A DNA stretch of 32,408 nt from an uncultured Acidobacteriia bacterium (GTDB lineage Bacteria > Acidobacteriota > Terriglobia > Bryobacterales > Bryobacteraceae): the NCBI GenBank assembly GCA_903892565.1, contig CAITIX010000339.1, forward strand, positions 1 through 32,408, read 5' to 3'. Positions 10,121 to 30,487 of this stretch are shown here, in pieces (position 1 is the stretch's first letter; each line of letters starts with the position of its first letter). The position numbers and the translations under genes were made by a program. The notes under the pieces were generated by a model. The model was not told the origin of the DNA. It saw only the letters and a list, made by a program, of their open reading frames with translations, and ran no database searches.

Positions 10121-10505
10121 ATCGGCTGAAGGCGCCCGTTTTGGATTCCCGAAGTCTGCGAGAATCCTGCACACCGCCGAATTCCGCGCCACCTATGACC
10201 AAGGCTTCCGCATTTCCGGGCCCCTGTTCGCCGCATTTTGCAGGGCGCGGCCGGGGTCGGAATTGCAATCGGGCGCGGTCACTATCACGGGACCTCGTTT
10301 GGGGCTCACTGTGCCTCGCGCCATTGGCGGAGCCGTTATCCGCAATCGTATTAAAAGACGGCTGCGCGCGGCCTTCCGGCTGTATCGCGCCCAGATTGGT
10401 CCACAGTGGGACATCGTGCTTAACCCGCGGCGCGCGGCACTGGACGCGAGCTTTGCGGACATCGAAAAAGCATTTGGGCGCCTAATTCAAAAATGCGGAC
10501 CCTGA
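10092..10505 (+). CDS. rnpA: Ribonuclease P protein component
   Basis: The protein cofactor of RNase P, which trims the 5' leader of tRNA precursors. The 137-residue product has [22 protein letters not shown] at the N-terminus, the family start pattern, and [26 protein letters not shown] (about residues 74-99), containing the conserved RNR helix that binds the RNA. The ATG at 10092 lies 29 nt inside rpmH; no later start would keep the conserved N-terminal strand, although the first ~12 residues are not needed for it. It overlaps yidD by 13 nt. Confidence 0.93.
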
Positions 10506-10702
10506 CCCTGGCCCTCTTACGTACTTATAAACGATGGGTGTCTCCGTGCCTGCCCTCGGCCTGCCGCTTTCACCCGACGTGCTCCGTCTACATGATGCAA
10601 TCGATTGAGAAGTACGGCGTGGCGCGCGGGATCTGGATGGGCCTGGGACGCTTGCTACGCTGTCATCCCTTTCACGAAGGAGGATTCGATCCGGTACGTT
10701 AA
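10493..10702 (+). CDS. yidD: Membrane protein insertion efficiency factor YidD
   Basis: A 69-residue membrane-associated protein that assists YidC. It shows the whole conserved signature: LLRTYKRWVSPCLPSACRF, then HPTCSVYMMQSIEKYGV and RLLRCHPFHEGGFDPV, with three conserved cysteines. The N-terminal stretch [12 protein letters not shown] is a likely amphipathic helix. The start overlaps the end of rnpA by 13 nt and yidC begins 17 nt after its stop, the standard order for this cluster. Confidence 0.94.
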   Translation: MRTLTLALLRTYKRWVSPCLPSACRFHPTCSVYMMQSIEKYGVARGIWMGLGRLLRCHPFHEGGFDPVR

Positions 10703-10719
10703 ATGGATCGAGTTCAAAC

Positions 10720-12426
10720 ATGAAAAAAGATTTGTCCATGGAGGCTCGGCTCCTCATCGCGTTCCTACTCATGGGCGTGGTGCTGATGGTGAGCCAGTAC
10801 TTCATCAAGCCGGTGCCGGCGCCTACGAAACCGGCCGACGCAAAGTCCGCGCCATCGACGGCGGGGTCTACCTCACAGGCGGAGCCCTCTTCTGCTCCGA
10901 TTCCGTCCCCGAAATCGAGCCAAGCAGCAACATCCGCCCAACAGGAAGCCGTTCAGAGTTATGCCGAGCAGACCTACCCGGTAGACACCGACCATTTCCA
11001 CGTGGTGTTTTCGAATCGCGGCGCCACGGTGCGCAGTTGGATTCTCAAGGACTACAAGGATCACAACGGAAAACCGCTGGAGCTGGTTTATCAAAGGGGC
11101 ATGGGCAAGGTTTCGCCGCCCTTTGCGCTGACATTTAAAGGCACCACGCCTTCCACCGATCCGAATACGGCGTTGTTTAAAGAAGAAGGCTCCGACGGCG
11201 GGAATACGCTGACGTTCGAATTTTCCGACGGGCGCTCGGTAACGAAGAAGACGTTCCACTTCGAGCCCAAGAGCTATTTGGTGCAGGTCACAACCGAAGT
11301 GACGCAGAATGGCGTGGCGCTGCCGCATTCCATGACGTGGCGCGGCGGATTCGGCGACGCGGCCGCAGTGGGTGCGCGGGGCGGGACGGCTGCCACGGTG
11401 CAGCACGCCATTTACTACGACCTCCCGAACACGAAACTGCAAGTGAAGACCGCGAAGGATGCCAAGAATGGTCCGGTTTCGGCCAGCGGGCAATTTTCCT
11501 TCGTGGGCATTGAGGATAGTTACTTCGCTGCGGCGTTCCTGCCCGCGAATAAATCTTCCGTCGAGCAAACCACATTCGCCGATACGGTTCCGGATAACGC
11601 GGGAGCCGATGAACAACGCGTCGGCGTCGGCGTGGGTGGCGAAGGCGTAAACACGGTGTCGCTGTTCGTGGGTCCCAAGGATACGGACCTGCTGCGGGCC
11701 GTGGATCCAAAGCTCGAGCAGGTGGTGGACTGGGGCTGGTTCTGGTTCCTGGCGCAGCCCTTGTTCAAGGCGCTGAACTGGGTCACGGATAACGTCGCGC
11801 ACAATTACGGATGGTCGATTGTGCTGGTGACAGTCATCATCAATCTCGTATTGTTCCCGCTGAGACTCACGAGCATGAAGTCCTCGCGGAAAATGCAGAC
11901 GCTGCAGCCGCAGATCAACGCGATCAACGAACGATACAAGGGATTGCCGCTCAAAGATCCCAAGCAGAACGACAAGAACGCTGAGATCATGGATCTCTAC
12001 AAAAAGAACGACGTCAATCCGGTGGGCGGGTGCTTGCCGATGATGTTGCAGCTTCCGTTCTTGTGGGCCTTCTACAAGGTACTGAGCGTATCGATTGAAA
12101 TGCGCGGCGCGCACTGGTTGTGGGTGACCGATCTTTCGCAGCCGGAAACGCTGGCGATCCACATGCTGCCGGTGCTCCTAATCGTCACGCAATTTCTGAC
12201 GCAGAAGATGACGCCAAGCCCGGGCATGGATCCTTCACAGCAGAAGATCATGTTGTTTATGCCGCTGATGTTCGGCTACATGTTCTATTTCGCGTCCGCC
12301 GGGTTGGTACTATACTGGTTAACCGGCAACGTGGTTGCTGTCGCCCAGCAATGGGCACTGAATCGCATCTCTCCGCCGCCCGCGGCGGTCAAAGTGATTC
12401 CCAATAACAAGAAGGGCAGGAGTTGA
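10720..12426 (+). CDS. yidC: Membrane protein insertase YidC
   Basis: YidC inserts and folds inner-membrane proteins, alone or with Sec. The 568-residue product has the Gram-negative layout: a first membrane helix (residues ~9-28), a Pro/Ser/Ala-rich linker (~30-72), a large periplasmic beta domain (~75-320) and the C-terminal insertase core (~345-550) with NYGWSIVLVTVIINLVLFPL, KMQTLQPQINAINERY, NPVGGCLPMMLQLPFLWAF and GLVLYWLTGN. At the position of the hydrophilic-groove arginine there is Asn375; the nearest arginine is Arg382. The basic tail ends NNKKGRS. The stop overlaps the TTG start of khpB. Confidence 0.95.
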   Translation: MKKDLSMEARLLIAFLLMGVVLMVSQYFIKPVPAPTKPADAKSAPSTAGSTSQAEPSSAPIPSPKSSQAATSAQQEAVQSYAEQTYPVDTDHFHVVFSNRGATVRSWILKDYKDHNGKPLELVYQRGMGKVSPPFALTFKGTTPSTDPNTALFKEEGSDGGNTLTFEFSDGRSVTKKTFHFEPKSYLVQVTTEVTQNGVALPHSMTWRGGFGDAAAVGARGGTAATVQHAIYYDLPNTKLQVKTAKDAKNGPVSASGQFSFVGIEDSYFAAAFLPANKSSVEQTTFADTVPDNAGADEQRVGVGVGGEGVNTVSLFVGPKDTDLLRAVDPKLEQVVDWGWFWFLAQPLFKALNWVTDNVAHNYGWSIVLVTVIINLVLFPLRLTSMKSSRKMQTLQPQINAINERYKGLPLKDPKQNDKNAEIMDLYKKNDVNPVGGCLPMMLQLPFLWAFYKVLSVSIEMRGAHWLWVTDLSQPETLAIHMLPVLLIVTQFLTQKMTPSPGMDPSQQKIMLFMPLMFGYMFYFASAGLVLYWLTGNVVAVAQQWALNRISPPPAAVKVIPNNKKGRS

Positions 12427-13190
12427 ACTTGTCCGACAAAAAATATACTGTGGCCGAAACCGGCCCGCTGATTGAAGACTTTCTTGAGCCCGTACTGGAT
12501 GCCGCCGACTTCGACGTGGAATACGTCGTGGCCGAAGGCGAGACACCACATCCGGATTTCGAAAATCCCGAAGTGATGGTGAAGTTCTCGGGACCGGACG
12601 TCGATCTGCTTCTGGCGAACAAAGCCGAAGTGCTGCTCGCGCTGGAGCACCTGACGCAAGAAGCGCTGCACATGCCGTCGGACGATCACTCGAAACTGTG
12701 TTTCGACGCGAACGATCGACGCGCGTTGCGCATCGAGGAGCTTCGCATGAGCGCGGCAGCCGCTGCCGAACGTGTTCGCAAGACGCACGCGCCGTTTCAC
12801 TTTAGTCCGCTGAATAGCCGCGAACGCCGCATCCTGCATTTGTCGTTGCGCGACGAACAGGGCGTGCGCAGCGAAAGCGTCGGCGAAGGAGCGATTCGCC
12901 AGGTTGTGATTGTGCCGGCCGACATGAAGACGTTGCCCGAGCCGGTGATTCCGCCTCGTCCGCGTCCGGAAGATGACGGAGGGCGTCCGCGCTTTGGTGG
13001 ACGTGACGGAGATCGCGGTGGACGCGGCGGAGATCGTCGTGGTGGTCCGGGCGGCGGACGCGGTGGGCCGGGTGGTTCACGTGGCGGCAGACCGGGCGGT
13101 AGACCGGGTGGCGGCGGAGGCCGTGGTGGGCCGGGTGGTGGTGGCCGTGGCGGACCGGGCGGAGATCGCGGCGGCCGTCCAAGACACTAA
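12423..13190 (+). CDS. khpB: KhpB/Jag-type RNA-binding protein with Arg/Gly-rich tail
   Basis: A cytoplasmic RNA-binding protein of the KhpB (Jag/EloR) family, 255 residues. Visible parts: a KH-like core (~50-90) in which the GxxG loop is replaced by ANKA (65-68), an R3H domain (~105-166) with RERRILHLSL (Arg135, His139) and ESVGEGAIRQVVIVP, and a tail (~183-255) made of repeated GGRGG, GGPGG and GGRPGG units. The N-terminal Jag-N domain of many homologues is absent. The start is TTG at 12423, overlapping the yidC stop (TTGA). Position after yidC is the family's usual place. The tail DNA is a degenerate GGTGG/CGTGG repeat, so its length may vary between strains. Confidence 0.88.
   Translation: MNLSDKKYTVAETGPLIEDFLEPVLDAADFDVEYVVAEGETPHPDFENPEVMVKFSGPDVDLLLANKAEVLLALEHLTQEALHMPSDDHSKLCFDANDRRALRIEELRMSAAAAAERVRKTHAPFHFSPLNSRERRILHLSLRDEQGVRSESVGEGAIRQVVIVPADMKTLPEPVIPPRPRPEDDGGRPRFGGRDGDRGGRGGDRRGGPGGGRGGPGGSRGGRPGGRPGGGGGRGGPGGGGRGGPGGDRGGRPRH
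12966..13187 (+). repeat. Degenerate Gly/Arg codon repeat in the khpB tail
   Basis: About 220 bp of imperfect short repeats (GGTGG, CGTGGC, CCGGGCGG) code for the RGG-type tail of KhpB. The pattern has codon periodicity and no spacers, so it is a coding low-complexity repeat. Slippage here would change tail length in steps of codons. Confidence 0.75.
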
Positions 13191-18696: not shown

Positions 18697-19407
18697 CTAG
18701 GCCAGATCGAAGACGAGAAACTCGCCGCCTGTGTCGCCCGTGCCGGCAAAGGACAATGCTTTCTCATCGCTCACGGCCGCACCGTCGCCTTCTTTGAACG
18801 CGATGCCGTTCACCGCGATGTTCCCTTCGGCGCAATGAATCCACGCGTGGCGACCTTCGGGAATCGCGTAGTCAAGCGTCTCGCCTGGCGTCAAGACCGC
18901 TGCGTAGACACGCGCATCCTGGTGGACCTTCGCCACACCCGCCTTCGCTTCGTTGGCCGGGGCCACCATCAAACGCAGCTTGCCATGCTTCTCGGTAGGA
19001 TCGTAGGCGAACTGCTGATAGGAAGGGCGCAAATCTTCCTCACTGGGAACAATCCAAATCTGCAGGAAGTGCGTGGGTTCGGTCGGCGAACCGTTGAACT
19101 CCGAGTGAATCACGCCGGTGCCGGCCGACATCAATTGGACCTCATTGGCCCCCAGCACAGCGTTTTCACCCGTGCTGTCCTTGTGCGCGACCTTGCCTTC
19201 GAGGACATAGGAAATGATTTCCATATCGCGATGGCCGTGCGCTCCAAAGCCCATGCCCGCCGCGACGCGGTCGTCGTTTAACACGCGTAGCGCGCGAAAG
19301 CCCATTTGCTTTGGATCGTAGTAATCGGCGAAGGAAAACGTGTGATAGCTATTCAGCCAGCCATGATTTCCGTGGCCCCGCTCTTCGGCTCTGCGCAGAG
19401 TAATCAT
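18697..19407 (-). CDS. Pirin-family bicupin (YhhW-type)
   Basis: A cytoplasmic metal-dependent bicupin; the E. coli relative YhhW has quercetin 2,3-dioxygenase activity in vitro. The 236-residue product reads MITLRRAEERGHGNHGWLNS at the start, very close to YhhW, and holds the metal ligands in GAHGHRDMEI (His57, His59) and VIHSEFNG (His101, Glu103). I chose ATG 19407 because it aligns with YhhW; a TTG six codons upstream has no ribosome site. The second cupin (residues ~140-236) ends GGEFLVFDLA. It stands 62 nt after the secreted-protein gene and 21 nt before the flavodoxin-like gene. Confidence 0.9.
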   Translation of the reverse strand: MITLRRAEERGHGNHGWLNSYHTFSFADYYDPKQMGFRALRVLNDDRVAAGMGFGAHGHRDMEIISYVLEGKVAHKDSTGENAVLGANEVQLMSAGTGVIHSEFNGSPTEPTHFLQIWIVPSEEDLRPSYQQFAYDPTEKHGKLRLMVAPANEAKAGVAKVHQDARVYAAVLTPGETLDYAIPEGRHAWIHCAEGNIAVNGIAFKEGDGAAVSDEKALSFAGTGDTGGEFLVFDLA

Positions 19408-19469
19408 GCTCCCATAATATTGCAAACGGGGATGACATATTCGCGCGGTTGCGCTTATCGCAAAGTGGA

Positions 19470-20699
19470 CTAGTTTCGATCCAGATTCACTTCGCGCACG
19501 CCGTCGTCGAGTCCGTAAATTTTGATGACTCTTGGCTTAGGAGGAGCGGTGGGCTGTATCGTAGCAACGGGCTGCACAGGGAAAGTGGGCGCAGACGCTG
19601 CCCCGGGCTCAACGGATGGGCCGCGGACAGCAAAGCGTGAAGCTGCGTCGCCCGGCTTGTGCTCCTGCATCGTGCGGATATTGGCAGCGAGCTCATCCTT
19701 CGTCAACGCGATCTGAACGCGCATCCGCGGCCCATCGGCTCCGACTTTCACTTTCTTCCAGAACTGCTCGGCCATTTGCGGGTCCATCTTCGGGGTAACC
19801 GCGGTCTGCATCTGCGATAAAAAGAGTTGCGACATGGCTTGTGCGGCCGCTTCTGTCTTGGTCGCGAGATTGAAGTCCATGTTCATGCCGTCGCGCAGCG
19901 CCAGTCCGAATTCAAAGCCCTGGAGCTCGGAGGCGAACATCGCGCCGGGGCCCGTGGCCTTCTGCAAAGCACCGGATTCATCGCGTGCCAGCATCCAGAT
20001 GTCGTTCGCGGCCGCTAATTCGCGGGCGCGGGCGAAGAGCGGCCCGACAGCCTTTGCTCCAACACTATGGCGATCAATCGCACGATAGATCGATTTTTCA
20101 TCTCCCAGTAAAAGAGTGTGCTCGTTTAACACGGCAAAGCAGATGGTATTCTGCCCGGTGCCGCGGTAGACATTGATGCCCTTGTAGCTGGGATGCGGAC
20201 CCGTTAAGAGAGGCCGAAGGTGCTCGTCCGGGAACGTTCCAGTGACGGCTACGAGGAATGCCGGGTTGGTGTTCGGAACGGCCTTGGCTGTGGCCTGGGG
20301 CGCGGCCTTAGGTCCAGCGTTGGGTGCGGACTTGGGTGAAGGACCGGGTGCGGCGTTAGGAGCAATTGTGGAGTCCACCTTTCCACCGGTTGTGCGCGCG
20401 GGCGCGGCCATATCGCCATTCGACGCTACGAAGATGCTGTCGATGTCTTGGAGAAGTTCTGAAATCGGAAGTGGGAACATCGCCAACGGCATTTGCATCT
20501 GCGTTTTCATTTGCGAGCGCATTTGCTCGGTCATGGAATCGGCCAGCGACGAGTTTCGTATTCCTCGAACATCCACGCCGACCATAAATTTTGCGTCCGA
20601 AGGCGCAAGCTCCCAGGCAGCCTCGGCGGCGAACGCACTTGTAGCCGACAGAAGAAAGATCGAACAGCTGAGACCGGCAGAGAGAGCTTTTATACGCAT
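19470..20699 (-). CDS. Secreted protein of unknown function with Pro/Ala-rich linker
   Basis: I do not recognise a named family. The 409-residue product has a signal peptide (MRIKALSAGLSCSIFLLSATSAFA), then AWELAPSDAKFMVGVDVRGIRNS, which resembles the opening of several uncharacterised acidobacterial exported proteins. Residues ~105-145 form a Pro/Ala/Lys-rich linker (GPSPKSAPNAGPKAAPQAT). Two similar-looking halves follow, with LLLGDEKSIYRAIDRHS and the Met-rich AMSQLFLSQMQTAVTPKMDPQMAEQF. The C-terminal tail is again Pro-rich and ends KIYGLDDGVREVNLDRN. Likely periplasmic. It starts the minus-strand run leading to pirin. Confidence 0.7.
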   Translation of the reverse strand: MRIKALSAGLSCSIFLLSATSAFAAEAAWELAPSDAKFMVGVDVRGIRNSSLADSMTEQMRSQMKTQMQMPLAMFPLPISELLQDIDSIFVASNGDMAAPARTTGGKVDSTIAPNAAPGPSPKSAPNAGPKAAPQATAKAVPNTNPAFLVAVTGTFPDEHLRPLLTGPHPSYKGINVYRGTGQNTICFAVLNEHTLLLGDEKSIYRAIDRHSVGAKAVGPLFARARELAAANDIWMLARDESGALQKATGPGAMFASELQGFEFGLALRDGMNMDFNLATKTEAAAQAMSQLFLSQMQTAVTPKMDPQMAEQFWKKVKVGADGPRMRVQIALTKDELAANIRTMQEHKPGDAASRFAVRGPSVEPGAASAPTFPVQPVATIQPTAPPKPRVIKIYGLDDGVREVNLDRN

Positions 20700-20742
20700 A
20701 ATGACACTCGTGCCCTCATACTAGTGCGAAAGTACCGCTTCT

Positions 20743-20773
20743 GGAATCGAGCAAACACCTTAGTTTCGATTCC
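20743..20773. repeat. Long hairpin after the hopanoid operon
   Basis: GGAATCGA (20743-20750) pairs with TCGATTCC (20766-20773); inside, AAAC pairs with GTTT around the loop ACCTTA, leaving a two-base bulge. It lies about 28 nt after the stop of the last hopanoid-operon gene and upstream of the secreted-protein gene. There is no T run after it on the minus strand, so it is not a standard terminator. It may protect the 3' end of the transcript or aid factor-dependent termination. Confidence 0.5.
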
Positions 20774-20800
20774 GATCTACTCAAGAGGTTCGGTGCGCCG

Positions 20801-21850
20801 CTACGCGAAGAATGCCCTCTGAATGAACCAGTACGTGGCGAGCAGCGCGATCGCCCAGGAGACGGCGGGGCGCAGCCACGTCCACCCGCGGTTCATCAAA
20901 TCCTCCAGTGCGGGGAACAGCAGGATCACGAAGATGAGCTGGCCGATTTCGACGCCCGCATTGAACGAGAAGAGCGATAGCGCGAGGTCTGGACGCGGCA
21001 GCTGCATTTCGCGCAGGACGTTGGAAAATCCGAAACCGTGAATTAAGCCGAACAGGAATGTGATGCGCCAGCGCTCGAGGGAGCGCTTGCGGATCAAATT
21101 CTCCACGGCAACGTAGATGATGCTGAGCGCGATCATGCTCTCGGTGAAGCGCGAAGGCAGAATTACAACGTCAAACGTGGCAAGCGCGAGCGTAATGCTG
21201 TGCGCAATCGTGAAGGACGTGATCGTTTTCACGAGCGAGCGGAGCGAAGCCGTGGCGATCAGCAATCCCAGCAAGAACGCCAGATGATCGTAACCGGTGG
21301 CGATGTGCTGCATCCCCAGCCAAACGAAACGCAGAAACGTCTGAAGTTTCGAGCCACTGGTTTGGGTGAAGAAGGCTTCTGGATGACCACCCGCAAGCAC
21401 TCCCTCTTGCAGGCGCCCGTTCAGGATGAACGTGACCAGATGGATATGATCCTTGCCGAGGATTTCCGGGAGAGTGGAGCGGACCGTCAAGCCGAGCACT
21501 TCTTGCGGGAAGGTATACTTGAGGTCCAGATCGAGCACGTGATCGTCGAATAGGCGATAGCGATTGCGCGTAATCCGCGAAGGCGGGCCGGAGCTGTCGA
21601 GCGCATAGTGCTGCAGGATGGCGGCATAGACGCCGTCGAACGCTGCATCGAATTCCTGCTGGGTGACGGTTTTGTTGTGGTCCTGATCCACGCCAGGGAA
21701 ATCGAGCAGATTGAACGTGAAGGCCGCGTGCACTTCGCGACCGTGGACCTCCAGGCGCGATTCGCTGCGGTAGAGGTCGTGCGCTGCGAGCGTCGAGGCT
21801 GCGGCAAGGAAGAGAGAAGCAGCAGCGAGCAGGCAGCGGCGCGTCCGCAC
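20801..21850 (-). CDS. HupE/UreJ-like membrane protein with EF-hand loop
   Basis: The 349-residue product has a signal peptide (MRTRRCLLAAASLFLAAASTLA), an extracytoplasmic domain of ~150 residues and a C-terminal membrane domain of the HupE/UreJ_2 type, marked by GYDHLAFLLGLL, SFTIAHSITLALA and GLIHGFGFSNVL, with histidines in the helices. HupE-type proteins are linked to nickel or cobalt transport, but this group is uncharacterised. Residues 55-66 (DQDHNKTVTQQE) form a complete 12-residue EF-hand calcium loop. The GTG start at 21850 has AAAGGAG upstream and overlaps the hpnD stop by one base; a TTG at 21871 is less likely. Last gene of the hopanoid operon. Confidence 0.78.
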   Translation of the reverse strand: MRTRRCLLAAASLFLAAASTLAAHDLYRSESRLEVHGREVHAAFTFNLLDFPGVDQDHNKTVTQQEFDAAFDGVYAAILQHYALDSSGPPSRITRNRYRLFDDHVLDLDLKYTFPQEVLGLTVRSTLPEILGKDHIHLVTFILNGRLQEGVLAGGHPEAFFTQTSGSKLQTFLRFVWLGMQHIATGYDHLAFLLGLLIATASLRSLVKTITSFTIAHSITLALATFDVVILPSRFTESMIALSIIYVAVENLIRKRSLERWRITFLFGLIHGFGFSNVLREMQLPRPDLALSLFSFNAGVEIGQLIFVILLFPALEDLMNRGWTWLRPAVSWAIALLATYWFIQRAFFA

Positions 21851-22716
21851 TACGCGGCTCCTTTGGCCCAACTCCTTATCAGCAGCCAGATTTTCTGTGC
21901 CGCCGATAAGCGGATGCGCCGGGAAAGAACGTCGTAGTTGGATTCCACAATGCGATCGAGCAGTGTCGAATAAATCGCAATGAGCGCGGCGAGCGAAGCG
22001 CGGCTGCCTTCATCGACCATCGCGACCAGCGGCGCGGATTGCTTGTAATAGTCGCGTGCGCGCTCGGCCTCGAACTGCATCAACTCGCGAAAGCGTTCGG
22101 GTGGGCCAAAGGTTTCGGCGGACACTTGGAACTTTTGTAGATCGTCAAGAGGAAGATAGACACGCTGTTTTCCCAGATCTTCGCGCACATCGCGCAGGAT
22201 GTTCGTGATCTGAAACGCGATGCCGCATTTTTCCGCGAGTTCTAGCGCGCGGGGATCGCTAAAGCCGAAGATGTGAATGATGGTGAGGCCGACGACGCTG
22301 GCCACGTGATAGCAGTAATCGTAGAGTTCGTCGAAGGTTTGAATGCGGCGGGGCTCGAGGTCGGAACTGACGCCAGCGATCATGTCAAAGAAATACTGGT
22401 GGGGGATTTTAAAACGCTGTACGGTATCTACGAACGCGGGCCACACAGGATGCTTCGGCGCGTTCCCGTTCGCGGCCCCATTAGCCAAAGCAGCCGTTAG
22501 ATCGTTTCGCCATTGCGCAATGGCCGACGCCCGATCGGCGATGCCCTCGTCGTCGCTGAGATCGTCGCAATAACGCATGAACGCGTAGATGGCGCACATC
22601 GCGCTGCGTTTTTCTTTGGAGAGGAGCAGGAACGAATAGTAGAAATTCTTCGCCTGCGTGCGTGCGACCTGCTCGCACCAGGCGTATGATTCCGCGATGG
22701 CCGGGCTCGGACTCAT
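21850..22716 (-). CDS. hpnD: Presqualene diphosphate synthase HpnD
   Basis: HpnD joins two farnesyl diphosphates into presqualene diphosphate, first step of the HpnCDE route to squalene. The 288-residue product has both metal-binding Asp-rich motifs: YCDDLSDDE (Asp51-Glu57) and NILRDVREDLGKQRVYLP (about residues 182-199). It lacks the membrane anchor of eukaryotic squalene synthase. Its ATG overlaps the hpnC stop (ATGA) and its stop overlaps the HupE-like start by one base. HpnD and HpnC are assigned by motif style (FWQD in HpnC, ILRD in HpnD). Confidence 0.9.
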   Translation of the reverse strand: MSPSPAIAESYAWCEQVARTQAKNFYYSFLLLSKEKRSAMCAIYAFMRYCDDLSDDEGIADRASAIAQWRNDLTAALANGAANGNAPKHPVWPAFVDTVQRFKIPHQYFFDMIAGVSSDLEPRRIQTFDELYDYCYHVASVVGLTIIHIFGFSDPRALELAEKCGIAFQITNILRDVREDLGKQRVYLPLDDLQKFQVSAETFGPPERFRELMQFEAERARDYYKQSAPLVAMVDEGSRASLAALIAIYSTLLDRIVESNYDVLSRRIRLSAAQKIWLLIRSWAKGAA

Positions 22717-23645
22717 GCGGCTCGGGAGAACGCACGACGCGTGACCGCGGCCAGCAACATGCCAACGCGTTCGGTTTTCGAGATCGCGGGACGCGCGCGC
22801 AACACGTCATAGCCCTGTTTCTCGATTTTCTCCAGCACCTTCAGACCGCCGCGGCTGAAGAGATCGAGATCGATGGCCAATCGCCGGTCGACTTGGTCGG
22901 CCAGTGGCAGCCCCTGCAAAAACAGCTCACGCGCCACGTCGACGGCTTCTTTCATGGCGCCTGCGAAACGCGGATCGAACTTGTGCGCGAAGAGTTCTTC
23001 TACCGAATAGCCGTGCCGCTCCAGCACGTCAAGCGGCAGGTACACGCGATCTTTTTTCAAATCGACTGTGACATCCTGCCAGAAGTTCGCCAGCTGCAGT
23101 GCGGTGCAAGTTGCATCGGAGAGCGCGTAGCGCGCGGCATCGTGATAGCCGCACAGTCCGAGAACGAGGCGTCCCACGGGGTTCGCAGAGTACTTGCAGT
23201 AGCGAAACAGCTCGTCGAAGTTGCGATAGCGCGTGACGGTTTGATCTTGGACGAAGGCAGTGATGAGATCGTCAAAGGGTTCGATCGGCAAATGATGCCG
23301 CGCCGCGGTGTCCTGCAGCGCGACATACACGGGATGCCGGGCTACTTTCTTGTTCTCTGCTGCTCCGGCGTACATCGCATGCAATTCGCCGCGCCACCAG
23401 GCGAGCTGCTTCAAGCTTTCCTGCGTGTCGCCGAGCTCGTCGCCTAAATCGTCGGCCCAGCGGCAGAAGGAGTAGACGTTGTAGAAATCCTGATGCAGGC
23501 GCTTGGGCAGCAGGAAGCTGACCACCTGAAAATTCTCGTAGTGATGGGTCGCAAGCCAGCGGGTGTAGGCGAGCGATTCCTCCGGCGTCCAAGCGCGTCC
23601 CATGGCTTCCGGCGATTTGAGGAACTGGACCGGCTGTAGAAACAC
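22713..23645 (-). CDS. hpnC: Hydroxysqualene synthase HpnC
   Basis: HpnC turns presqualene diphosphate into hydroxysqualene. The 310-residue product has FCRWADDLGDE (Asp65-Glu70) and LANFWQDVTVDLKKDRVYLP (~181-200), the HpnC-type versions of the two Asp-rich motifs. The GTG at 23645 begins 6 nt after the stop of the upstream dehydrogenase; ATG at 23603 with CCGGAAG upstream is an alternative start that keeps the conserved ESLAYTRWLATHHYENF. HpnE, which reduces hydroxysqualene to squalene, is not encoded in the window. Confidence 0.9.
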   Translation of the reverse strand: MFLQPVQFLKSPEAMGRAWTPEESLAYTRWLATHHYENFQVVSFLLPKRLHQDFYNVYSFCRWADDLGDELGDTQESLKQLAWWRGELHAMYAGAAENKKVARHPVYVALQDTAARHHLPIEPFDDLITAFVQDQTVTRYRNFDELFRYCKYSANPVGRLVLGLCGYHDAARYALSDATCTALQLANFWQDVTVDLKKDRVYLPLDVLERHGYSVEELFAHKFDPRFAGAMKEAVDVARELFLQGLPLADQVDRRLAIDLDLFSRGGLKVLEKIEKQGYDVLRARPAISKTERVGMLLAAVTRRAFSRAA

Positions 23646-23651
23646 GAGCGT

Positions 23652-24695
23652 TTACGGGATAATCGCCGTCTTCAAATGCCCGTTGTGACTCATCAAATGC
23701 TGCATGACTTCGAGCAGATTGGTGAGCGGCTCCACGCCATTCACAAAATCCTTGGCCGTAATGTAGCCACGCGTGACCGCCTCCAGCGCCTTGCGCATCA
23801 ACGCGGGCGTGTGATGGAAGCTGGCTTTGCACGTCAGTTCCGAATAGTGCAGCAGATTCGTATCGAGGCCGACTTCGGTGCCGCTGGCACATCCGCCGAA
23901 GAAATTGATGACACCGCCGCGCCGCAGCATGTGGACGCCGAGTTGCCACAATTCGGGAAGGCCCACGGCTTCGATCACGACGTCCGCGCCGCGTCCATGC
24001 GTCATGGCTTTCACGGCACTCACGGCATCGGCGCCGTCTTTGTTCAAAATTAGTTCGTCGGCACCCATGCGAGCCGCGCGATCCAACTGCGGCTGCCGGC
24101 GGCCGACGGCGATCACGCGCGCCTTGTACATGCTTTTCGCCAAGCGCACGAACATCATGCCGATGGGGCCCAGGCCGATAATGACGACGTTATCGCCGGG
24201 CTTTATGCCGCTCTCTTCGAGCCCGCGCATCACGCACGCCAAGGGTTCGGCAAGCGCCGCGTCCTGATATCCCACGCCATCTTCCAGCACGTACATATTG
24301 CGCCGGACGATGCGATCCGGAATACGGATGTATTCGGCATACGCGCCGTTGTTAAACAGCAGATCTTCGCACAGATTTTCCTGATCGCGCTGGCAGTAGA
24401 AGCACACACCGCAGGGAGCGGAGTTCGCGGCCATCACGCGCTGGCCAAGCTGGAATCCTTTGACCCCTTCGCCGACCGAGACAATGTCCCCGGCGAGTTC
24501 ATGCCCGAACAGGGCCGGCGGCTTGATCATGCGGGCATGGTAGCCACGCCGGAACACTTTCACGTCAGTACCGCACGTTAAGGCCGCACGAACGCGAACC
24601 AGCACGTCTCCCGCGCCGATGGTGGGCACGTCGACTTGCTCAATCTCGAGGTGTTCCTTGCCGTACAAGACGGCGGCTGTCATCTGATCCGTCAC
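23652..24695 (-). CDS. Zinc-dependent medium-chain dehydrogenase 1 of the hopanoid operon
   Basis: An NAD(P)-dependent alcohol/polyol dehydrogenase of the MDR family, 347 residues. Catalytic zinc: Cys41 (TCGTD), His65-Glu66 (FGHELAG). Structural zinc: Cys95, Cys98, Cys101, Cys109 (CGVCFYCQ...NLC). Cofactor fold: VVIIGLGPIGMM (~172-183). The overall pattern is closest to sorbitol/galactitol-phosphate-type dehydrogenases, which act on polyols and open-chain sugars. GTG start, 5 nt after the stop of the second dehydrogenase gene and 6 nt before hpnC. Placement inside the hopanoid operon, in the segment after hpnG, suggests a role on the sugar-derived side chain; this is inference. Confidence 0.85.
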   Translation of the reverse strand: MTDQMTAAVLYGKEHLEIEQVDVPTIGAGDVLVRVRAALTCGTDVKVFRRGYHARMIKPPALFGHELAGDIVSVGEGVKGFQLGQRVMAANSAPCGVCFYCQRDQENLCEDLLFNNGAYAEYIRIPDRIVRRNMYVLEDGVGYQDAALAEPLACVMRGLEESGIKPGDNVVIIGLGPIGMMFVRLAKSMYKARVIAVGRRQPQLDRAARMGADELILNKDGADAVSAVKAMTHGRGADVVIEAVGLPELWQLGVHMLRRGGVINFFGGCASGTEVGLDTNLLHYSELTCKASFHHTPALMRKALEAVTRGYITAKDFVNGVEPLTNLLEVMQHLMSHNGHLKTAIIP

Positions 24696-24700
24696 TCGCC

Positions 24701-25762
24701 TTACCTTTGAGGGTGTACTACGATCTTCAACGATTCTGCGTCCGGATGCAACGCCCGCTCAATTCCAAGATGAATATCCGTTAATGCAAATTGGTGCGAG
24801 ACCAGTTCCTCCAGCGGCAAGGCCTTGGAAAATACGAGGTTTGCGGACTCTTTCTGAACATCGACGGAGGCGCTATAAGACCCACACAGCACCCTTTCGC
24901 CCACGCAAATATCGGCGCCCGAAACCTCGATGCGCTCCTTATGTGACGTTTGTGCGAATAGCAGAATCTTCGCTCCCGGCCTGGAGCAAGCTACGGCCTG
25001 TTCCACAATGCCCGGAGCCGACGCCGCAATGATGACCAAATCCGCGCCGCGTCCTTCGGTCATCGACCGAACGGTCTTTTCGAAGTCGGGTGTCCGCGGA
25101 TCGAGCGCCTCGTGCGCCCCGAAGCGCCGGGACAAGCCGCGACGGAACTCCATGGTATCGGTGGCGACGATCCTCGCTCCGGTGCGCGCAGCAAGCATCG
25201 TAAAGATGAGGCCGATGGGTCCCTGCCCCAGAATCGCGACCACGTCGCCGGGTTGCGGATCCACCTGATGCATGCCTTTGACGCAGGTGTTGACGGGTTC
25301 CACAAAAGACGCCTGATCGAACGATACGCCGTCTGGGATTTTTTCGATGCCGCGTTCGACGATCCAATCCATCACACGCACATATTGCGCAAAGCCCCCG
25401 CCTGCGGGCTCGTATCCAGCCGTGACGCCGACTTTCTTATACACGGCGCATTGGGCATATAACTTCTTGCTGCAATAAAAACACTTACCGCAGGGGATGT
25501 GGTGAAACACCACCACGCGATCGCCCGGCGCATACTGCGTGACGCCAACGCCGACGGCCGCAATCACGCCCGCCGTTTCGTGCCCGTACACGCGGGGAGG
25601 CGGGAGCAGATCGTATTCAATCTTTTTGAGATCCGTGTGGCAAATCCCGCAGGTTTCGACGCGAATCAGCACTTCTCCGGGCCCGATTTGCGGCACGGGA
25701 ATGGCTTCGACGTCCACCTTCTGGGCGCCCTTGTAGACGGCCGCCATCATCGTTGCCGTCAT
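24701..25762 (-). CDS. Zinc-dependent medium-chain dehydrogenase 2 of the hopanoid operon
   Basis: A second MDR dehydrogenase, 353 residues from the ATG at 25762. Catalytic zinc: Cys41 (CGICHTD), His61-Glu62 (YGHETAG); structural zinc: Cys91, Cys94, Cys97, Cys105 (CGKCFYCSKKLYAQC). NAD(P) fold: VVAILGQGPIGLIF. The start is set by alignment with dehydrogenase 1 (MTATMMAAVYKG against MTDQMTAAVLYG); an open frame continues to a TTG at 25840, which would overlap hpnG by 20 nt and add a 26-residue unrelated leader. The two dehydrogenases are clearly diverged, so this is not a recent duplication. It follows hpnG directly. Confidence 0.85.
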   Translation of the reverse strand: MTATMMAAVYKGAQKVDVEAIPVPQIGPGEVLIRVETCGICHTDLKKIEYDLLPPPRVYGHETAGVIAAVGVGVTQYAPGDRVVVFHHIPCGKCFYCSKKLYAQCAVYKKVGVTAGYEPAGGGFAQYVRVMDWIVERGIEKIPDGVSFDQASFVEPVNTCVKGMHQVDPQPGDVVAILGQGPIGLIFTMLAARTGARIVATDTMEFRRGLSRRFGAHEALDPRTPDFEKTVRSMTEGRGADLVIIAASAPGIVEQAVACSRPGAKILLFAQTSHKERIEVSGADICVGERVLCGSYSASVDVQKESANLVFSKALPLEELVSHQFALTDIHLGIERALHPDAESLKIVVHPQR

Positions 25763-25820
25763 CGGGGGTATGCCGGTCGCCTGATGGCCAGGAGACGTGC
25801 CTTTTACGCTCGCGAGCAAG

Positions 25821-26522
25821 CTAGAATCTGCAGTCTGCAAGAAAGTCTCCTAACACCAAGGACGCCTGTTTACTGCGGCGGTCAAATTCCAGCAACGCGG
25901 GCATCACGGAAAACGGACGCGCCATGGCGGCGAGCGCAATGCGTCCGCGTGAAAAAGTTCCGTCGGCACTGCGATAACGATTAAAGTCCAAGGGCATGTC
26001 CTCGGCAGCGGCGTCTGAAACGACGCGCACACAGGCATACGCAACCCCGAGTTCGTTGGCCCGCTGCTCTACCGATGCGGCTTCCATGTCGACGGCGATG
26101 GCCGCCGTCTGCTGGAGCAGTGCGCGTTTCTCGGCGGCCGTCACGGCCACACGATCTTGCGTCGTCACGCCACCGCGCGCAAACGCGCGATGGGAACTCA
26201 GATGAGTCTCATTGGAAATAACGATATCCCCGACCCGAAGCGTCGGATCGAGTGCGCCGCAATAGCCTGTGCTGATCATCCCTATCACGTTGTCCTGCCC
26301 GGCGTCTTTCCTATCTAAATAGCGAAGCAAACCGTCCGATACCGCTTGGCTCGCCAATCCCCTGCCCGGTCCATTCGCCACCATCACCCAGCGCTCTTCG
26401 CCACGTATGCCTTCACACGCGAATTTCACGCCGAGACCCGTGATCGCCGCAGTTCCCGTGAGATGCCGGCGGATCCCATCGAATTCACGCCGTTCGGCGG
26501 CCACTAGCAGCCTTGTCTTCAC
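25821..26522 (-). CDS. hpnG: Hopanoid-associated nucleosidase HpnG
   Basis: HpnG removes adenine from adenosylhopane to give ribosylhopane. The 233-residue product has the nucleoside-phosphorylase/MTAN fold: N-terminal KTRLLVAAERREFDGI, GMISTGYCGALDPTLRVGDI, and VDMEAASVEQRANELGV with the conserved Met-Glu of the ribose site, then CVRVVSDAAAED with the Asp that contacts the base. GTG at 26522 is selected because it just includes the first beta strand; it overlaps the end of hpnA by 38 nt. A longer frame to 26654 adds an Arg-rich stretch that is a shadow of hpnA. hpnH, which makes its substrate, is not in the window. Confidence 0.87.
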   Translation of the reverse strand: MKTRLLVAAERREFDGIRRHLTGTAAITGLGVKFACEGIRGEERWVMVANGPGRGLASQAVSDGLLRYLDRKDAGQDNVIGMISTGYCGALDPTLRVGDIVISNETHLSSHRAFARGGVTTQDRVAVTAAEKRALLQQTAAIAVDMEAASVEQRANELGVAYACVRVVSDAAAEDMPLDFNRYRSADGTFSRGRIALAAMARPFSVMPALLEFDRRSKQASLVLGDFLADCRF

Positions 26523-27507
26523 AGTAACCGTTCGCCTGAAACCACTCCGCCGCCTGCCGCAACGCTTCGGTCGCAGGCCGCGCCGTATATCCCAATTCGC
26601 GCGCGGCTTTGTCATGCCGCACCCACATCTTCTTGCGAGCCATGCGCACTCCATCGAGCGGAGCCCTGGGCTCTTTCCCCGTCACCGACGCCCAACTCGT
26701 AGAAGCGACGCCTGCGGCGTACGCGACTGCATACGGGATGCGCATCCGCGGCGCTTTCTTGCCCGTCACCGCCGCCAGTTTTTCAAAAATCTGCTGCAGC
26801 GTGAGATTTTCGCCACCCAGCACGTATCGCTCGCCAACTCTACCACGCTCGCACGCTGCAAAATGACCCTCGGCGACGTCGCCTGCGTAAACTACGTTCA
26901 ACCCTGTATCGAGGAACGCCGGCATCGCGCCCCGCAAAAAATCCACTACGATCTTCCCGGTCGGCGTAGGACGAAAATCGTGATCGCCGATGGGCGCCGT
27001 GGGATTCACAATCACCACCGGGAACCCCTCGCGCGCGAACTCGAGCGCGACCTGCTCCGCCTGATACTTCGAGCGCTTATACGGCCCGGCCATTGCATCG
27101 AGCCCCACGGGAACGCTTTCGTCGCCGATTCCACCCTCGGGGATTCCGATGCAACCCACAGTGCTGGTATACACACAACGTTCTACGCCGGACTTGCGCG
27201 CGGCATCGAACACGTTCCGAGTGCCATCCACGTTTGACCGGTACATTTCCTCCGGCCTCCGCACCCACAACCGATAATCCGCCGCCGCGTGGTAAACGAC
27301 TCCGCAGCCATTCACCGCCCGTGTTACCGAATCCGCATCGCGCAGATCGCCGCGGGCAATCTCCGCGCCCTTCAGTTCACCAAGCGCCGTTGCTCCGCCG
27401 GAAGGATCCCGCACCAGCAGCCGGACCTTCTCCCCGCGGTCCAACAAGCGGCGCGCGATATGCCAGCCCAGGAACCCCGTCGCTCCCGTGACCAGTACAG
27501 GTTTCAA
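26485..27507 (-). CDS. hpnA: Hopanoid-associated NAD-dependent epimerase/dehydratase HpnA
   Basis: An extended short-chain dehydrogenase of 340 residues found with hopanoid genes. It has the TGATGFLGWHIARRLLDRG nucleotide loop at residues 7-25, VYHAAADYRLW, the Ser/Thr active-site strand VYTSTVGCIG and the catalytic YKRSK. The sequence PTAPIGDHDFRPTPTGKIV is characteristic of the HpnA group. The precise reaction is not established; hopanoid-linked sugar modification is often assumed. ATG start, 51 nt after the shc stop; its 3' end overlaps hpnG. Confidence 0.9.
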   Translation of the reverse strand: MKPVLVTGATGFLGWHIARRLLDRGEKVRLLVRDPSGGATALGELKGAEIARGDLRDADSVTRAVNGCGVVYHAAADYRLWVRRPEEMYRSNVDGTRNVFDAARKSGVERCVYTSTVGCIGIPEGGIGDESVPVGLDAMAGPYKRSKYQAEQVALEFAREGFPVVIVNPTAPIGDHDFRPTPTGKIVVDFLRGAMPAFLDTGLNVVYAGDVAEGHFAACERGRVGERYVLGGENLTLQQIFEKLAAVTGKKAPRMRIPYAVAYAAGVASTSWASVTGKEPRAPLDGVRMARKKMWVRHDKAARELGYTARPATEALRQAAEWFQANGYCEDKAASGRRTA

Positions 27508-27558: not shown

Positions 27559-29502
27559 CTAATTGCCCGAAGCGCCGGACTTGGCCTTCACGTAGGTCGC
27601 CAACGCCAGCACCGGGAACGAATGCCGGTAGTAGTGATACTGCAAATAGAACACGCGAGGGAAGCCTGTACCCGTGGCCAGTTCTTCATTCCAGCCTCCG
27701 TCGGGACGCTGCGTCTCCATCAAGTATTCGATGCCCTTCTGCAGGCTGCTGCTCGTCGTATCGCCACCGGCGATCAAACCCAGCACCGCCCATGCCGTTT
27801 GCGACGGCGTGCTCTGGGCCTCTACATACGTATTGCGATCGTAACTGGCGCAGCTTTCGCCCCAGCCTCCATCCGCATTTTGAATGGAGCGGAGCCACTC
27901 GCCCGCGCGCAGCACGTGCGCCTCGCGATCGCTCTCGCCCACGGCCTGCAAACCGCGCAGCGCCAAAAACGTTCCGTAGACGTAGTTCACGCCCCAGCGG
28001 CCATACCAACTACCATCGGCTTCCTGCGTGCGCACCAGGAAATCCACACCGCGGCGCAGCGCTGGATGATCATGCGGCACACCACAGGCCGCCATGGCCT
28101 CCAACACGCGGCCCGTAATATCCGGGCACGTAGGATCGAGCATGGCGTTGTGATCCGCAAAGGGGACCGAACTCAGGAACTCCCAGTTGTTATCGACGTC
28201 GAACGCCGCCCAGCCGCCATCCTTCGATTGCATGGCCAGCAGCCAGTTCACCGCGCGCTTGATGGTTTCATCCTGCTGCACGGCGTGTGTGCCCTTAGCG
28301 CCGGCCAGCGCCAGCAGCACCTGAGCCGTGTCGTCGATGTCCGGATAATATTCGTTGGCGAACTCGAAGTACCAACCGGAGGGCTCCACATTCGGACGCT
28401 TCACGCTCCAGTCGCCCTTACGGCGCACTTCTTTCGTGATCAGCCAATCGGCCGCGCGCTCCAGCGATTCCTGCGGCATGGCGCCGGATTCCGCGAGCGC
28501 ATAGGCCGCAATCGCCGTATCCCACACCACGCTAAAACAGGGCTGGAAGAAAAACCCGCGTTCGTCGTCCACCAGCAGATTGAAGAACTGTTGCTCGGCT
28601 TCCCGAACATCCGGATGATCTTTCGGGTAGCCCAACAGATCGAGCGCCATGATGACGTACATCATGGGCGGATAAATCGCAGCGACGCCGTCGGTGTAGC
28701 GCGTGCGTTCCAGAATCCAGCTTTCGGCGCGGCGAATGGATCGCTGCCGCAAGCTCTTCGAACCGTACTTCTCCCAGAACTTCAGGACCTTGTCGGCCTT
28801 GAGGAAGAAGTTCCGCATGCTGAAGAATCCCTCGTCGTTGGGGAATTCGAGCGAAACACCGGGCGTCAGCAACTCGTCCACCGTAAAGCCCGCGGGCACG
28901 GGACGCTGCGGATTCATAGAATGCACGATCGACAAAGGAATCACGATCGCGCGGGACCAGGACGAGATTTCGTAAATCAGCCGCCCCAGCAGCATGCCTT
29001 CCGGAGGAATGGTCGGCGTGAACTCGTGCGGGAACAGTCCAAACAAGCTGAGGTTGATTTTGACGTAGCTATTGGCCGCCTGCAGGCCGCCCATCGCCAT
29101 GATGCGCTCGCGCAACTTCACCAGGCGCGCATCGTCGGCATCCATGTGGCCCAGCACCACACCGCCCAGCTTCAGCGCCGTGTAGGCTTTGACGCTGGCG
29201 TTAATTTCCGAAGGGCCCTGCGGGTAAATATTGAACCCGCCATCGGGCAGCTGACGAGCCAAGATCGAGCGCACGGCTTTTTCAATGCGCGTTTTTGTAG
29301 GAGGATTCCAAACGCCGTTGACGGGAGCATGGCGCCACAATTCCAGCAGAATGAAATCGGATTCCAGTGTGCTATCGGCGGTGAGGTCGGCCCACCAATA
29401 CCCGTCGGCATGCTGCTTCTTCAGAAAGAAGTCGACTGCATTGCGAATGGTGCGCGTACAAGCCGTGCTCAATGCGTCACTCAATTGAAGACTTGGACTC
29501 AT
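27559..29502 (-). CDS. shc: Squalene-hopene cyclase
   Basis: Shc cyclises squalene to hopene/hopanol at the membrane surface. The 647-residue product has the usual length, the catalytic DIDDTA motif (residues 388-393), and the repeated QW-type motifs such as KKQHADGYWWA, QSKDGGWAAFDVDN, QEADGSWYGRWG, QNADGGWGES and QRPDGGWNEE. Conserved GVNYVYGTFLAL and FYLQYHYYRHSFPVLAL near the C-terminus complete the match. The ATG overlaps the ispH stop by 4 nt, so precursor supply and cyclisation are translationally linked. Confidence 0.96.
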   Translation of the reverse strand: MSPSLQLSDALSTACTRTIRNAVDFFLKKQHADGYWWADLTADSTLESDFILLELWRHAPVNGVWNPPTKTRIEKAVRSILARQLPDGGFNIYPQGPSEINASVKAYTALKLGGVVLGHMDADDARLVKLRERIMAMGGLQAANSYVKINLSLFGLFPHEFTPTIPPEGMLLGRLIYEISSWSRAIVIPLSIVHSMNPQRPVPAGFTVDELLTPGVSLEFPNDEGFFSMRNFFLKADKVLKFWEKYGSKSLRQRSIRRAESWILERTRYTDGVAAIYPPMMYVIMALDLLGYPKDHPDVREAEQQFFNLLVDDERGFFFQPCFSVVWDTAIAAYALAESGAMPQESLERAADWLITKEVRRKGDWSVKRPNVEPSGWYFEFANEYYPDIDDTAQVLLALAGAKGTHAVQQDETIKRAVNWLLAMQSKDGGWAAFDVDNNWEFLSSVPFADHNAMLDPTCPDITGRVLEAMAACGVPHDHPALRRGVDFLVRTQEADGSWYGRWGVNYVYGTFLALRGLQAVGESDREAHVLRAGEWLRSIQNADGGWGESCASYDRNTYVEAQSTPSQTAWAVLGLIAGGDTTSSSLQKGIEYLMETQRPDGGWNEELATGTGFPRVFYLQYHYYRHSFPVLALATYVKAKSGASGN

Positions 29503-30464
29503 GCCCTCGCAACCGTCTGTAATTCGACCGGCAATTGGAACCGCACGTTCTCTTCCTTGATCTCCACTTCTTCCAGACTCTCAAAACCAGCCCCGTGCAA
29601 ATGCGCGATCAAGCGTTCGACCAAGTTTTCCGGTGCCGACGCCCCAGCCGTCACCGCTACTGTTTCGACGTCCTTCAGCCACTCCGGTTTCACTTCACTG
29701 AGGTCGTCGATCAAATACGAGGCCACGCCCGTCTTCTCGCAAACCTCTACCAGACGCCGCGAATTCGAGCTGTTCTGCGAGCCCACCACCAGCAACAGCT
29801 GGCACATCGGCGCCACCGCTTTTACCGCCAACTGACGATTTTCGGTGGCATAACAAATATCCTGCGCCGCCGGACCCTGAATCTTCGGGTAGCATTCCTT
29901 CAACCGATCGACAATCTCTTTCGTCTCGTCGAGGCTGAGGGTTGTCTGCGTAATGTAGGAAATCTTTTCCGGATCTTTCACTTTGAGCAGGTCCACATCC
30001 TCTACGGTCGAGACCAACACCGTGGATTCCGGAGCTTCACCCAAGGTCCCTATCACTTCGTCGTGATCCTTGTGACCAATCAGGACAATCGTATAGCCCT
30101 TCTTGGCAAAACGGACCGCTTCCAAATGGACCTTCGTCACCAGAGGGCACGTGGCGTCGATGAATTGCAGCTTCCGCGCAACGGCTTCATCGCGAACCAC
30201 AGGAGCGACACCGTGCGCACTAAAAATAACCCGGGCGCCTTCGGGAACCTCCGAAAGCTCCTCGACGAAGATGGCTCCTGCAGCGCGCAACTCTTCTACT
30301 ACGTGCTTGTTATGGACGATTTCCTTGCGCACGTAGATCGGCGCCCCGTACAGGTTCAACGCGATCTTCACCACGTCGATGGCTCTTACCACGCCTGCGC
30401 AAAATCCACGCGGACGCAACAACAGAATTTTCCTGGTGATAGCAGCGGACGCAGTTGTACTCAT
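29499..30464 (-). CDS. ispH: 4-hydroxy-3-methylbut-2-enyl diphosphate reductase
   Basis: IspH is the last enzyme of the MEP pathway and makes IPP and DMAPP with a [4Fe-4S] centre. The 321-residue product has the three cluster cysteines, Cys22 (RGFCAGV), Cys106 (DATCPLV) and Cys204 (DICYATENRQ), with His51 and His84, and Glu136 in GHKDHDEVIGT as proton donor. The frame opens to a TTG at 30479, but that codon lies in the -10 box, so the ATG at 30464 is the start. First gene of the hopanoid operon. Confidence 0.95.
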   Translation of the reverse strand: MSTTASAAITRKILLLRPRGFCAGVVRAIDVVKIALNLYGAPIYVRKEIVHNKHVVEELRAAGAIFVEELSEVPEGARVIFSAHGVAPVVRDEAVARKLQFIDATCPLVTKVHLEAVRFAKKGYTIVLIGHKDHDEVIGTLGEAPESTVLVSTVEDVDLLKVKDPEKISYITQTTLSLDETKEIVDRLKECYPKIQGPAAQDICYATENRQLAVKAVAPMCQLLLVVGSQNSSNSRRLVEVCEKTGVASYLIDDLSEVKPEWLKDVETVAVTAGASAPENLVERLIAHLHGAGFESLEEVEIKEENVRFQLPVELQTVARA

Positions 30465-30478
30465 GGAAATCTTTTCCA

Positions 30479-30487
30479 ATTATAACA
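30479..30487 (-). promoter_or_regulatory. Extended -10 promoter of the hopanoid operon, very short leader
   Basis: On the minus strand TGTTATAAT (30487-30479) is a perfect extended -10 box. Transcription would begin near 30472-30470, only 6-8 nt before the ispH ATG at 30464. The GGAAAAG just upstream of the ATG (30477-30471) would be largely outside the transcript. No -35 box is visible, as expected for extended -10 promoters. Confidence 0.65.

Follow-up and report, generated by a model that had tools for sequence, protein, structure and literature searches.

Hopanoid gene clusters of Acidobacteria were described by Sinninghe Damste et al. in 2017 (PMC5462960), where ug1 and ug2 denote unknowns of these clusters. 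The gene ug2, which codes for a Zn-binding alcohol dehydrogenase some 350 amino acids (aa) long and is located directly before hpnC, is reported in that paper for every strain of subdivisions 1 and 3 and as missing in Chloracidobacterium thermophilum; the same paper links it to the squalene genes hpnCDE and proposes HpnA for the reduction of ribosylhopane. According to a 2025 article citing Bodlenner 2015 (PMC12583986), the enzyme converting ribosylhopane into bacteriohopanetetrol is still not established, as an earlier note on the DNA considered here had supposed, and no assigned ribosylhopane reductase was found in the literature searched, which covered few subscription journals. Here, two zinc-dependent dehydrogenases of the medium-chain dehydrogenase/reductase (MDR) superfamily, named DH1 and DH2, have been analyzed, both encoded in a hopanoid operon of an uncultured Acidobacteriia bacterium (contig CAITIX010000339.1, the whole stretch of 32,408 nucleotides being called the window). 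The two genes are conserved companions of the hopanoid pathway in soil Acidobacteria and could supply the unassigned reduction step, a proposed role that is testable rather than shown.

The gene order on the minus strand of the window is ispH-shc-hpnA-hpnG-DH1-DH2-hpnC-hpnD (Table 1), with intergenic gaps of 58 nt between hpnG and DH1, 5 nt between DH1 and DH2 and 6 nt between DH2 and hpnC. Re-examination confirmed the coordinates, the complete zinc sites and the 5-58 nt spacing between hpnG and hpnC that had been noted earlier. As a zinc MDR enzyme of 347 aa encoded immediately before hpnC, DH2 agrees with the description of ug2, and DH1 resembles ug1 in following hpnA-hpnG; the passages of PMC5462960 that mention ug1 give it no family, and from its position we infer that ug1 is DH1. 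The association of both genes with acidobacterial hopanoid clusters has been in print since 2017, without a reductase assignment, and what is new here is the cofactor split, the strict nesting of DH1 within the distribution of DH2 and a tandem outside hopanoid clusters in family f47. Environmental subdivision 3 clusters A and B are described in the same paper as reduced by the absence of ug2 and ug3, which is not reconciled with the present loci.

In the mechanism that we infer, as regards substrate, product and direction alike, HpnH makes adenosylhopane and HpnG releases adenine, after which ribosylhopane would need one carbonyl reduction. The zinc MDR couple, which became part of the hopanoid operon in one large section of the Acidobacteriota, would modify the C5 side chain once HpnH and HpnG have acted, and the most likely single reaction would be the NADPH-dependent reduction of the open-chain ribosylhopane aldehyde to bacteriohopanetetrol. 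The reduction in cell-free preparations reportedly used NADPH. DH2 would be the likelier catalyst, because its cofactor site is the better one and because it persists in family f40, where DH1 has been lost, and DH1 would be an NAD(H)-linked partner on the same chain. Bacteriohopanepolyols belong to the most widely used molecular fossils. With two candidate genes whose cofactors are predicted, with genomes that naturally have DH2 only and with a non-hopanoid outgroup provided by nature, the question of the reduction step can be tested directly; its resolution would help to predict side-chain chemistry from genomes.

Linkage of DH1 and DH2 to hopanoid genes

In a sample of 121 genomes of the class, counted without correction for kinship, DH1 was found in 75 genomes, DH2 in 80, HpnH in 88 and HpnG in 87. 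DH1 and HpnG occurred together in 73 genomes, DH1 only in 2, HpnG only in 14 and neither in 32, and the corresponding numbers for DH2 and HpnG were 78, 2, 9 and 32. Both genomes with the dehydrogenases and no HpnG (G102 and G121) have a contig ending at DH1, so that the survey of co-occurrence with hpnG that the earlier note had asked for turned out in favour of the association. Within the class, the genes are thus present together with HpnG and HpnH, as expected for a ribosylhopane reductase, and 15 HpnH genomes were found without DH1. Of the nine genomes with HpnG and no DH2, two belong to f41 and have the full shc-hpnH-hpnA-hpnG set, one (G115) is a contig end and six have weak HpnG matches.

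HpnG was detected with an alignment of our own because the family model gave weak matches even in controls, in 12 of the 14 genomes used. Six of the 87 HpnG matches were weak (G070, G116, G136, G138, G154 and G162), and those of G070, G138 and G162 may be paralogues since they lie on contigs other than the one carrying hpnH-hpnA. Adjacent hpnH-hpnA genes without hpnG, DH1 or DH2 were observed in loci L140-L143 (G070, G077, G138 and G162), with shc located elsewhere in G070 and G138.

DH1 is located directly after hpnG in 70 of the 75 genomes, 68 found by script and two (G072 and G126) by coordinates, and the other five comprise four contig ends (G068, G089, G102 and G121) and a 792-nt gap in G108. 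A scan of named loci covered the best 80 of at least 589 DH1 loci; these 80 all group with Acidobacteriota and are uninformative on other phyla. Among these best 80, hpnG directly precedes DH1 in 79 by script, and likewise in L190 according to its gene list; DH2 comes immediately after DH1 in 74, and the other six loci end within about 110 nt of DH1. The closest named relatives of DH1 are Bryobacterales metagenome bins, which makes the source organism a probable member of this group. One record titled Bordetella parapertussis (L158) shows a Bryobacterales-type hpn locus with a DH1 identity of 74%, and its title looks wrong. The linkage of DH1 and DH2 to hopanoid genes in the class is more than chance, and the link to hpnG is tighter for DH1 than for DH2.

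Analysis of the order of the two genes revealed separate linkages. DH2 is present in all 75 DH1 genomes and directly follows DH1 in 60 of them; two of the misses are contig ends (G128 and G159), and the remaining 13 splits, all from family f2, have the genes separated by 12 kb to 857 kb or within different contigs. The break falls between DH1 and DH2 in all 13, with hpnG staying upstream of DH1 and hpnC downstream of DH2, and it may reflect few evolutionary events because these genomes come from three genera. The five genomes with DH2 only all belong to family f40, where DH1 is absent and DH2 stands directly after hpnG in the order hpnG-DH2-hpnC (5/5). In seven loci of f28, which belongs to another class, the order is hpnA-DH1-DH2 followed by hpnD or hpnC. 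Taken together, these arrangements suggest that DH1 is mainly associated with the side-chain genes and DH2 with both halves of the pathway; the earlier treatment of the two as one pair is in this respect not supported.

A sample of 297 genomes of the phylum, searched with thresholds of 1e-100 for DH1 and 1e-60 for HpnH, contained DH1 in 49 genomes, with three more matches at about 1e-62, and HpnH in 80 genomes. DH1 was also present in 46 of these 80 and absent from the other 34, and a universal partnership of DH1 and DH2 with HpnG was consequently rejected. DH1 without HpnH was found in G216, G310 and G331; the lack of HpnH in G331 is doubtful, since this genome is 88% complete and its contig carries ispH-hpnA-DH1-DH2-hpnD-hpnG.

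The two genes were not found in all bacteriohopanetetrol-capable lineages sampled, nor was a known analogue seen in their place. Sixteen loci of DH1-negative Acidobacteriota outside the class were examined for a replacement MDR beside hpnG, five of them with hpnH only, and no match to the DH1 or DH2 profiles adjoined hpnG in the 11 hpnG-bearing loci or in two f41 loci. Inspection by eye of the open reading frames that follow hpnG, made in 12 loci and without a family search, revealed no recognisable oxidoreductase. A weak MDR match is located about 1.6 kb upstream of shc in L282. The other phyla were represented by plasmid-borne hpn loci only, and the five inspected (Mycetohabitans, Streptomyces, Roseomonas, Methylobacterium and Cupriavidus) gave no match with the DH1 and DH2 profiles; for three of the five, the annotation lists no MDR gene in the cluster.

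Zinc sites, cofactor sites and predicted structures

Both proteins show the domain architecture of the zinc-dependent MDR superfamily, with a GroES-like ADH_N domain (PF08240) and a Rossmann ADH_zinc_N domain (PF00107) above the Pfam cut-offs, and they share 38% identity over residues 1-268 of DH2. None of the NCBIfam equivalogs was reached at its cut-off; the best was scyllo-inosose 3-dehydrogenase, with 164 and 159 bits against 450, and both proteins fall outside the L-threonine 3-dehydrogenase and scyllo-inosose 3-dehydrogenase families (158-164 bits against 450-458).

The zinc ligands, whose positions we take from the pattern of the family, are presumably C38 (25649-25651), H61 (25580-25582), E62 and E155 (25298-25300) at the catalytic site of DH1 and C91/C94/C97/C105 at its structural site, and these eight residues are kept in 76 of 76 aligned copies. 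The equivalent residues of DH2 are C41 (24573-24575), H65, E66 and E150 for the catalytic zinc and C95, C98, C101 and C109 for the structural one, C41 being conserved in 73 of 82 aligned copies and the others in all 82.

The two enzymes are predicted to have opposite cofactor preferences. At the end of the second Rossmann strand, DH1 has Asp202 (codon 25157-25159), which is Asp in 76/76 copies, and DH2 has the site G198-R199-R200 (R199 codon 24099-24101), where position 198 is Gly, Val or Ala in 81/82 copies, position 199 Lys or Arg in 82/82 and position 200 Arg in 77/82. An Asp at the end of the second strand is typical of NAD-dependent enzymes and Lys/Arg residues like those of DH2 are typical of NADP-dependent ones, so that DH1 appears to be of NAD type and DH2 of NADP type. 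In a survey of the superfamily (PMC2976758), 30 of 35 two-zinc families are reported to prefer NAD, with YjgB among the NADP exceptions; a two-zinc enzyme of NADP type such as DH2 would therefore be unusual among MDRs and more likely to work as a reductase.

AlphaFold models with a mean predicted local distance difference test score of 94.2 for DH1 and 89.7 for DH2 were compared with Foldseek, and structures of alcohol, threonine, sorbitol and ketose dehydrogenases were retrieved at 18-28% identity and template modelling scores of about 0.8-0.9. The closest ones belong to the polyol/threonine dehydrogenase branch of the MDRs, including threonine dehydrogenases (2d8a/2dfv), an NADP ketose reductase (1e3j), sorbitol dehydrogenase (1pl6), 4ej6 and 4cpd. 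DH1 and DH2 share with this branch the fold, the two-domain Pfam architecture, the catalytic zinc ligands and the four-Cys lobe of the structural zinc. They differ from it in the low identity, 22-28% for most of the best-ranked structures, and in conserved stretches of their own, HHxPC and TAG-x-EP-x-GGGF in DH1 and NSAPC, LLFNNGAYAE and FHHTP in DH2.

Candidate roles and the tandem outside hopanoid clusters

The explanation that we prefer, although tentatively and at less than even chances, is that DH2 or DH1 acts on the side chain as ribosylhopane reductase; the earlier note, which had proposed this for the pair, is partly supported. It is favoured by the co-occurrence with HpnG, by the lack of an established enzyme for the step and by the 97-100% of tetrafunctionalised hopanoids given for cultured subdivision-3 strains in Table 1 of PMC5462960, this subdivision being the group of the nearest named relatives of the window. 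Several observations weigh against it. The two f41 genomes with shc-hpnH-hpnA-hpnG carry neither DH1 nor DH2, the 13 split genomes have DH2 accompanying hpnC-hpnD and not hpnG, and all 7 of the f28 loci examined have DH1-DH2 in the cluster with hpnG not adjoining DH1; in the phylum sample, there are the 34 of 80 HpnH-positive genomes lacking DH1. The catalytic Cys41 of DH2 is Asp in 9 of the 82 copies (L097, L100, L105-L107, L128, L130, L069 and L071) while the remaining ligands are kept, which possibly denotes a changed metal site. The usual target of polyol-type MDRs is a secondary hydroxyl and not a terminal aldehyde, which counts against the chemical suitability claimed earlier for a sugar-alcohol dehydrogenase family. 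Finally, C. thermophilum is reported to have 100% tetrafunctionalised hopanoids in the absence of ug2 (PMC5462960).

The genome G310, rated 100% complete, is a further point of this kind, since it contains DH1-DH2 with no SHC (squalene-hopene cyclase) match and no HpnH at 1e-60. In its family, f47, 10 of the 14 genomes searched bear DH1, DH2 follows directly in 10/10 and no hpn gene was seen in the stretches examined. A proline-dehydrogenase-family gene (PF01619, shown for two) is present upstream of the tandem in 8/10, immediately in 6, and another f47 genome (G179) has a separate shc-hpnH-hpnA-hpnG cluster without DH1 or DH2. The f47 copies share 45-49% (DH1) and 48-53% (DH2) identity with those of the window, values within the range of the hopanoid-cluster copies, which starts at 45% (DH1) and 46% (DH2). 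In a comparison of 9 f47 copies per protein, which excluded duplicated loci of f47, copies that were short or scored low, G049 and a Rhodococcus gene, the f47 copies agreed with the hopanoid-cluster copies at 64 of 79 conserved positions of DH1 and 75 of 96 of DH2, with only 2 (DH1) and 3 (DH2) of these positions absent from all f47 copies. The retention of the conserved residues suggests the same chemistry without hopanoids. The pair is evidently useful in G310 with these residues nearly unchanged, which counts against the ribosylhopane reductase assignment for both proteins.

These data argue for a general metabolic task, in which the enzymes would act, for example, on a sugar, a polyol or an amino-acid-derived alcohol or ketone, their place in the operon would be historical or regulatory and the reductase would be another protein such as HpnA. 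HpnA adjoins hpnG in many loci, and the 2017 authors propose it for the reduction; they also state that Burkholderia cenocepacia was reported not to need it for bacteriohopanetetrol and that Rhodopseudomonas lacks it (PMC5462960), which argues against HpnA. A general task also has to account for the fact that DH1 is never found in the class without HpnG or HpnH, save in the two contig-end genomes, and that many lineages without hopanoid genes lack both dehydrogenases as well, and we regard it as rather unlikely. In a further scenario, a transplantable redox module performing NAD-linked oxidation and NADPH-linked reduction of one polyol-like chain would have arisen outside hopanoid metabolism and been recruited to the acidobacterial operon, where it would be the missing system that finishes the C35 side chain, whether by reducing ribosylhopane or by fixing the stereochemistry of bacteriohopanetetrol; this scenario is unlikely as well.

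Editing of the side chain would be a different use of the opposite cofactor types found in the co-inherited tandem. DH1 would oxidise a secondary hydroxyl, for example at C34 or C33, with NAD, and DH2 would reduce the ketone again with NADPH, yielding a stereoisomer or passing an aldose through a ketose stage, and the terminal aldehyde would be reduced by something else. Threonine, ketose and sorbitol dehydrogenases act on secondary hydroxyls, and the closest solved relatives include such enzymes, 1e3j among them; the tandem is moreover kept outside hopanoid clusters. Editing fits poorly, however, with the occurrence of DH2 without DH1 in the five f40 genomes and with the distance between the genes in the 13 f2 genomes. 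In addition, the published acidobacterial lipid data were obtained with a degradation method (PMC5462960) that, by our reading of that account, removes the stereochemistry of the side chain, and editing is considered improbable.

Two unrelated tasks in one operon, DH2 working for squalene synthesis (hpnC-hpnD-hpnE) and DH1 for the side chain, would agree with the 13 split genomes, where DH2 is followed by hpnC and hpnG by DH1, and with the tie between ug2 and hpnCDE made in the 2017 paper (PMC5462960). This division is nevertheless very doubtful, as DH2 is directly after hpnG in f40, DH1 and DH2 remain together in f47 with no hpnC seen beside them, and HpnE is encoded elsewhere in this genome. 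To our knowledge, the route from farnesyl diphosphate to squalene has no unfilled oxidoreductase step when HpnE is available. A dehydrogenase acting as a substitute for hpnE, which is absent from the window, is ruled out by the hpnE gene on contig C360.

Some diverged relatives were also detected. A joint tree placed DH1 and DH2 apart; in both groups, the f47 and f28 copies branch near the base with weak support. Locus L123 (G049) contains at 10186-12432 a diverged tandem in reversed order, DH2-like and then DH1-like, without hpn genes in 19 kb, and SHC and HpnH are found elsewhere in this genome. A search of plasmids gave no match to DH1 at 1e-50 and 13 records for DH2. The nearest of these DH2 relatives, a zinc-binding dehydrogenase of Rhodococcus opacus plasmid pLPS8 (WP_242323970.1), is 45% identical over 97% of DH2. 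Its gene (in L261:6160-8709) is flanked by genes for a DeoR-type regulator and a class II aldolase, and an FGGY kinase is encoded close by, a sugar/polyol context unlike the hopanoid genes around DH2.

The operon and its neighbouring genes

The source genome is a 4.6 Mb assembly of 454 contigs, 95.6% complete, in which hpnH is located on contig C375. The open reading frame (ORF) of DH1 extends over 24701-25840 and would give 379 aa from a TTG codon, with the homologous part starting at the ATG that ends at 25762. Translation of hpnG probably does not begin at the ATG at 26654.

Table 1. Genes of the hopanoid operon in the window and the tandems of family f47
Feature	Position	Strand	Remarks
ispH, 4-hydroxy-3-methylbut-2-enyl diphosphate (HMBPP) reductase	29499..30479	-	over cut-off
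shc, squalene-hopene cyclase	27559..29502	-	over cut-off
hpnA, hopanoid-associated sugar epimerase (short-chain dehydrogenase/reductase, SDR)	26485..27507	-	465 bits, over cut-off
hpnG ORF, hopanoid-associated phosphorylase	25821..26654	-	homology 25830-26510; TIGR03468 103 bits, below 187 cut-off
DH1, MDR dehydrogenase, 353 aa	24701..25762	-	NAD-type site; both zinc sites
DH2, MDR dehydrogenase, 347 aa, GTG start	23652..24695	-	NADP-type site; both zinc sites
hpnC, squalene synthase subunit	22713..23645	-	349 bits, over cut-off
hpnD, presqualene diphosphate synthase	21850..22716	-	261 bits, below 279 cut-off
f47 proline-dehydrogenase-family gene, then DH1-DH2	L284:6581-9602; L285:7329-10261		away from hpn genes

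The 409-aa protein encoded downstream of hpnD showed no Pfam or NCBIfam match. It is one of three products of the minus strand in this part of the window (18697-21871), together with a HupE/UreJ-type membrane protein and a pirin.

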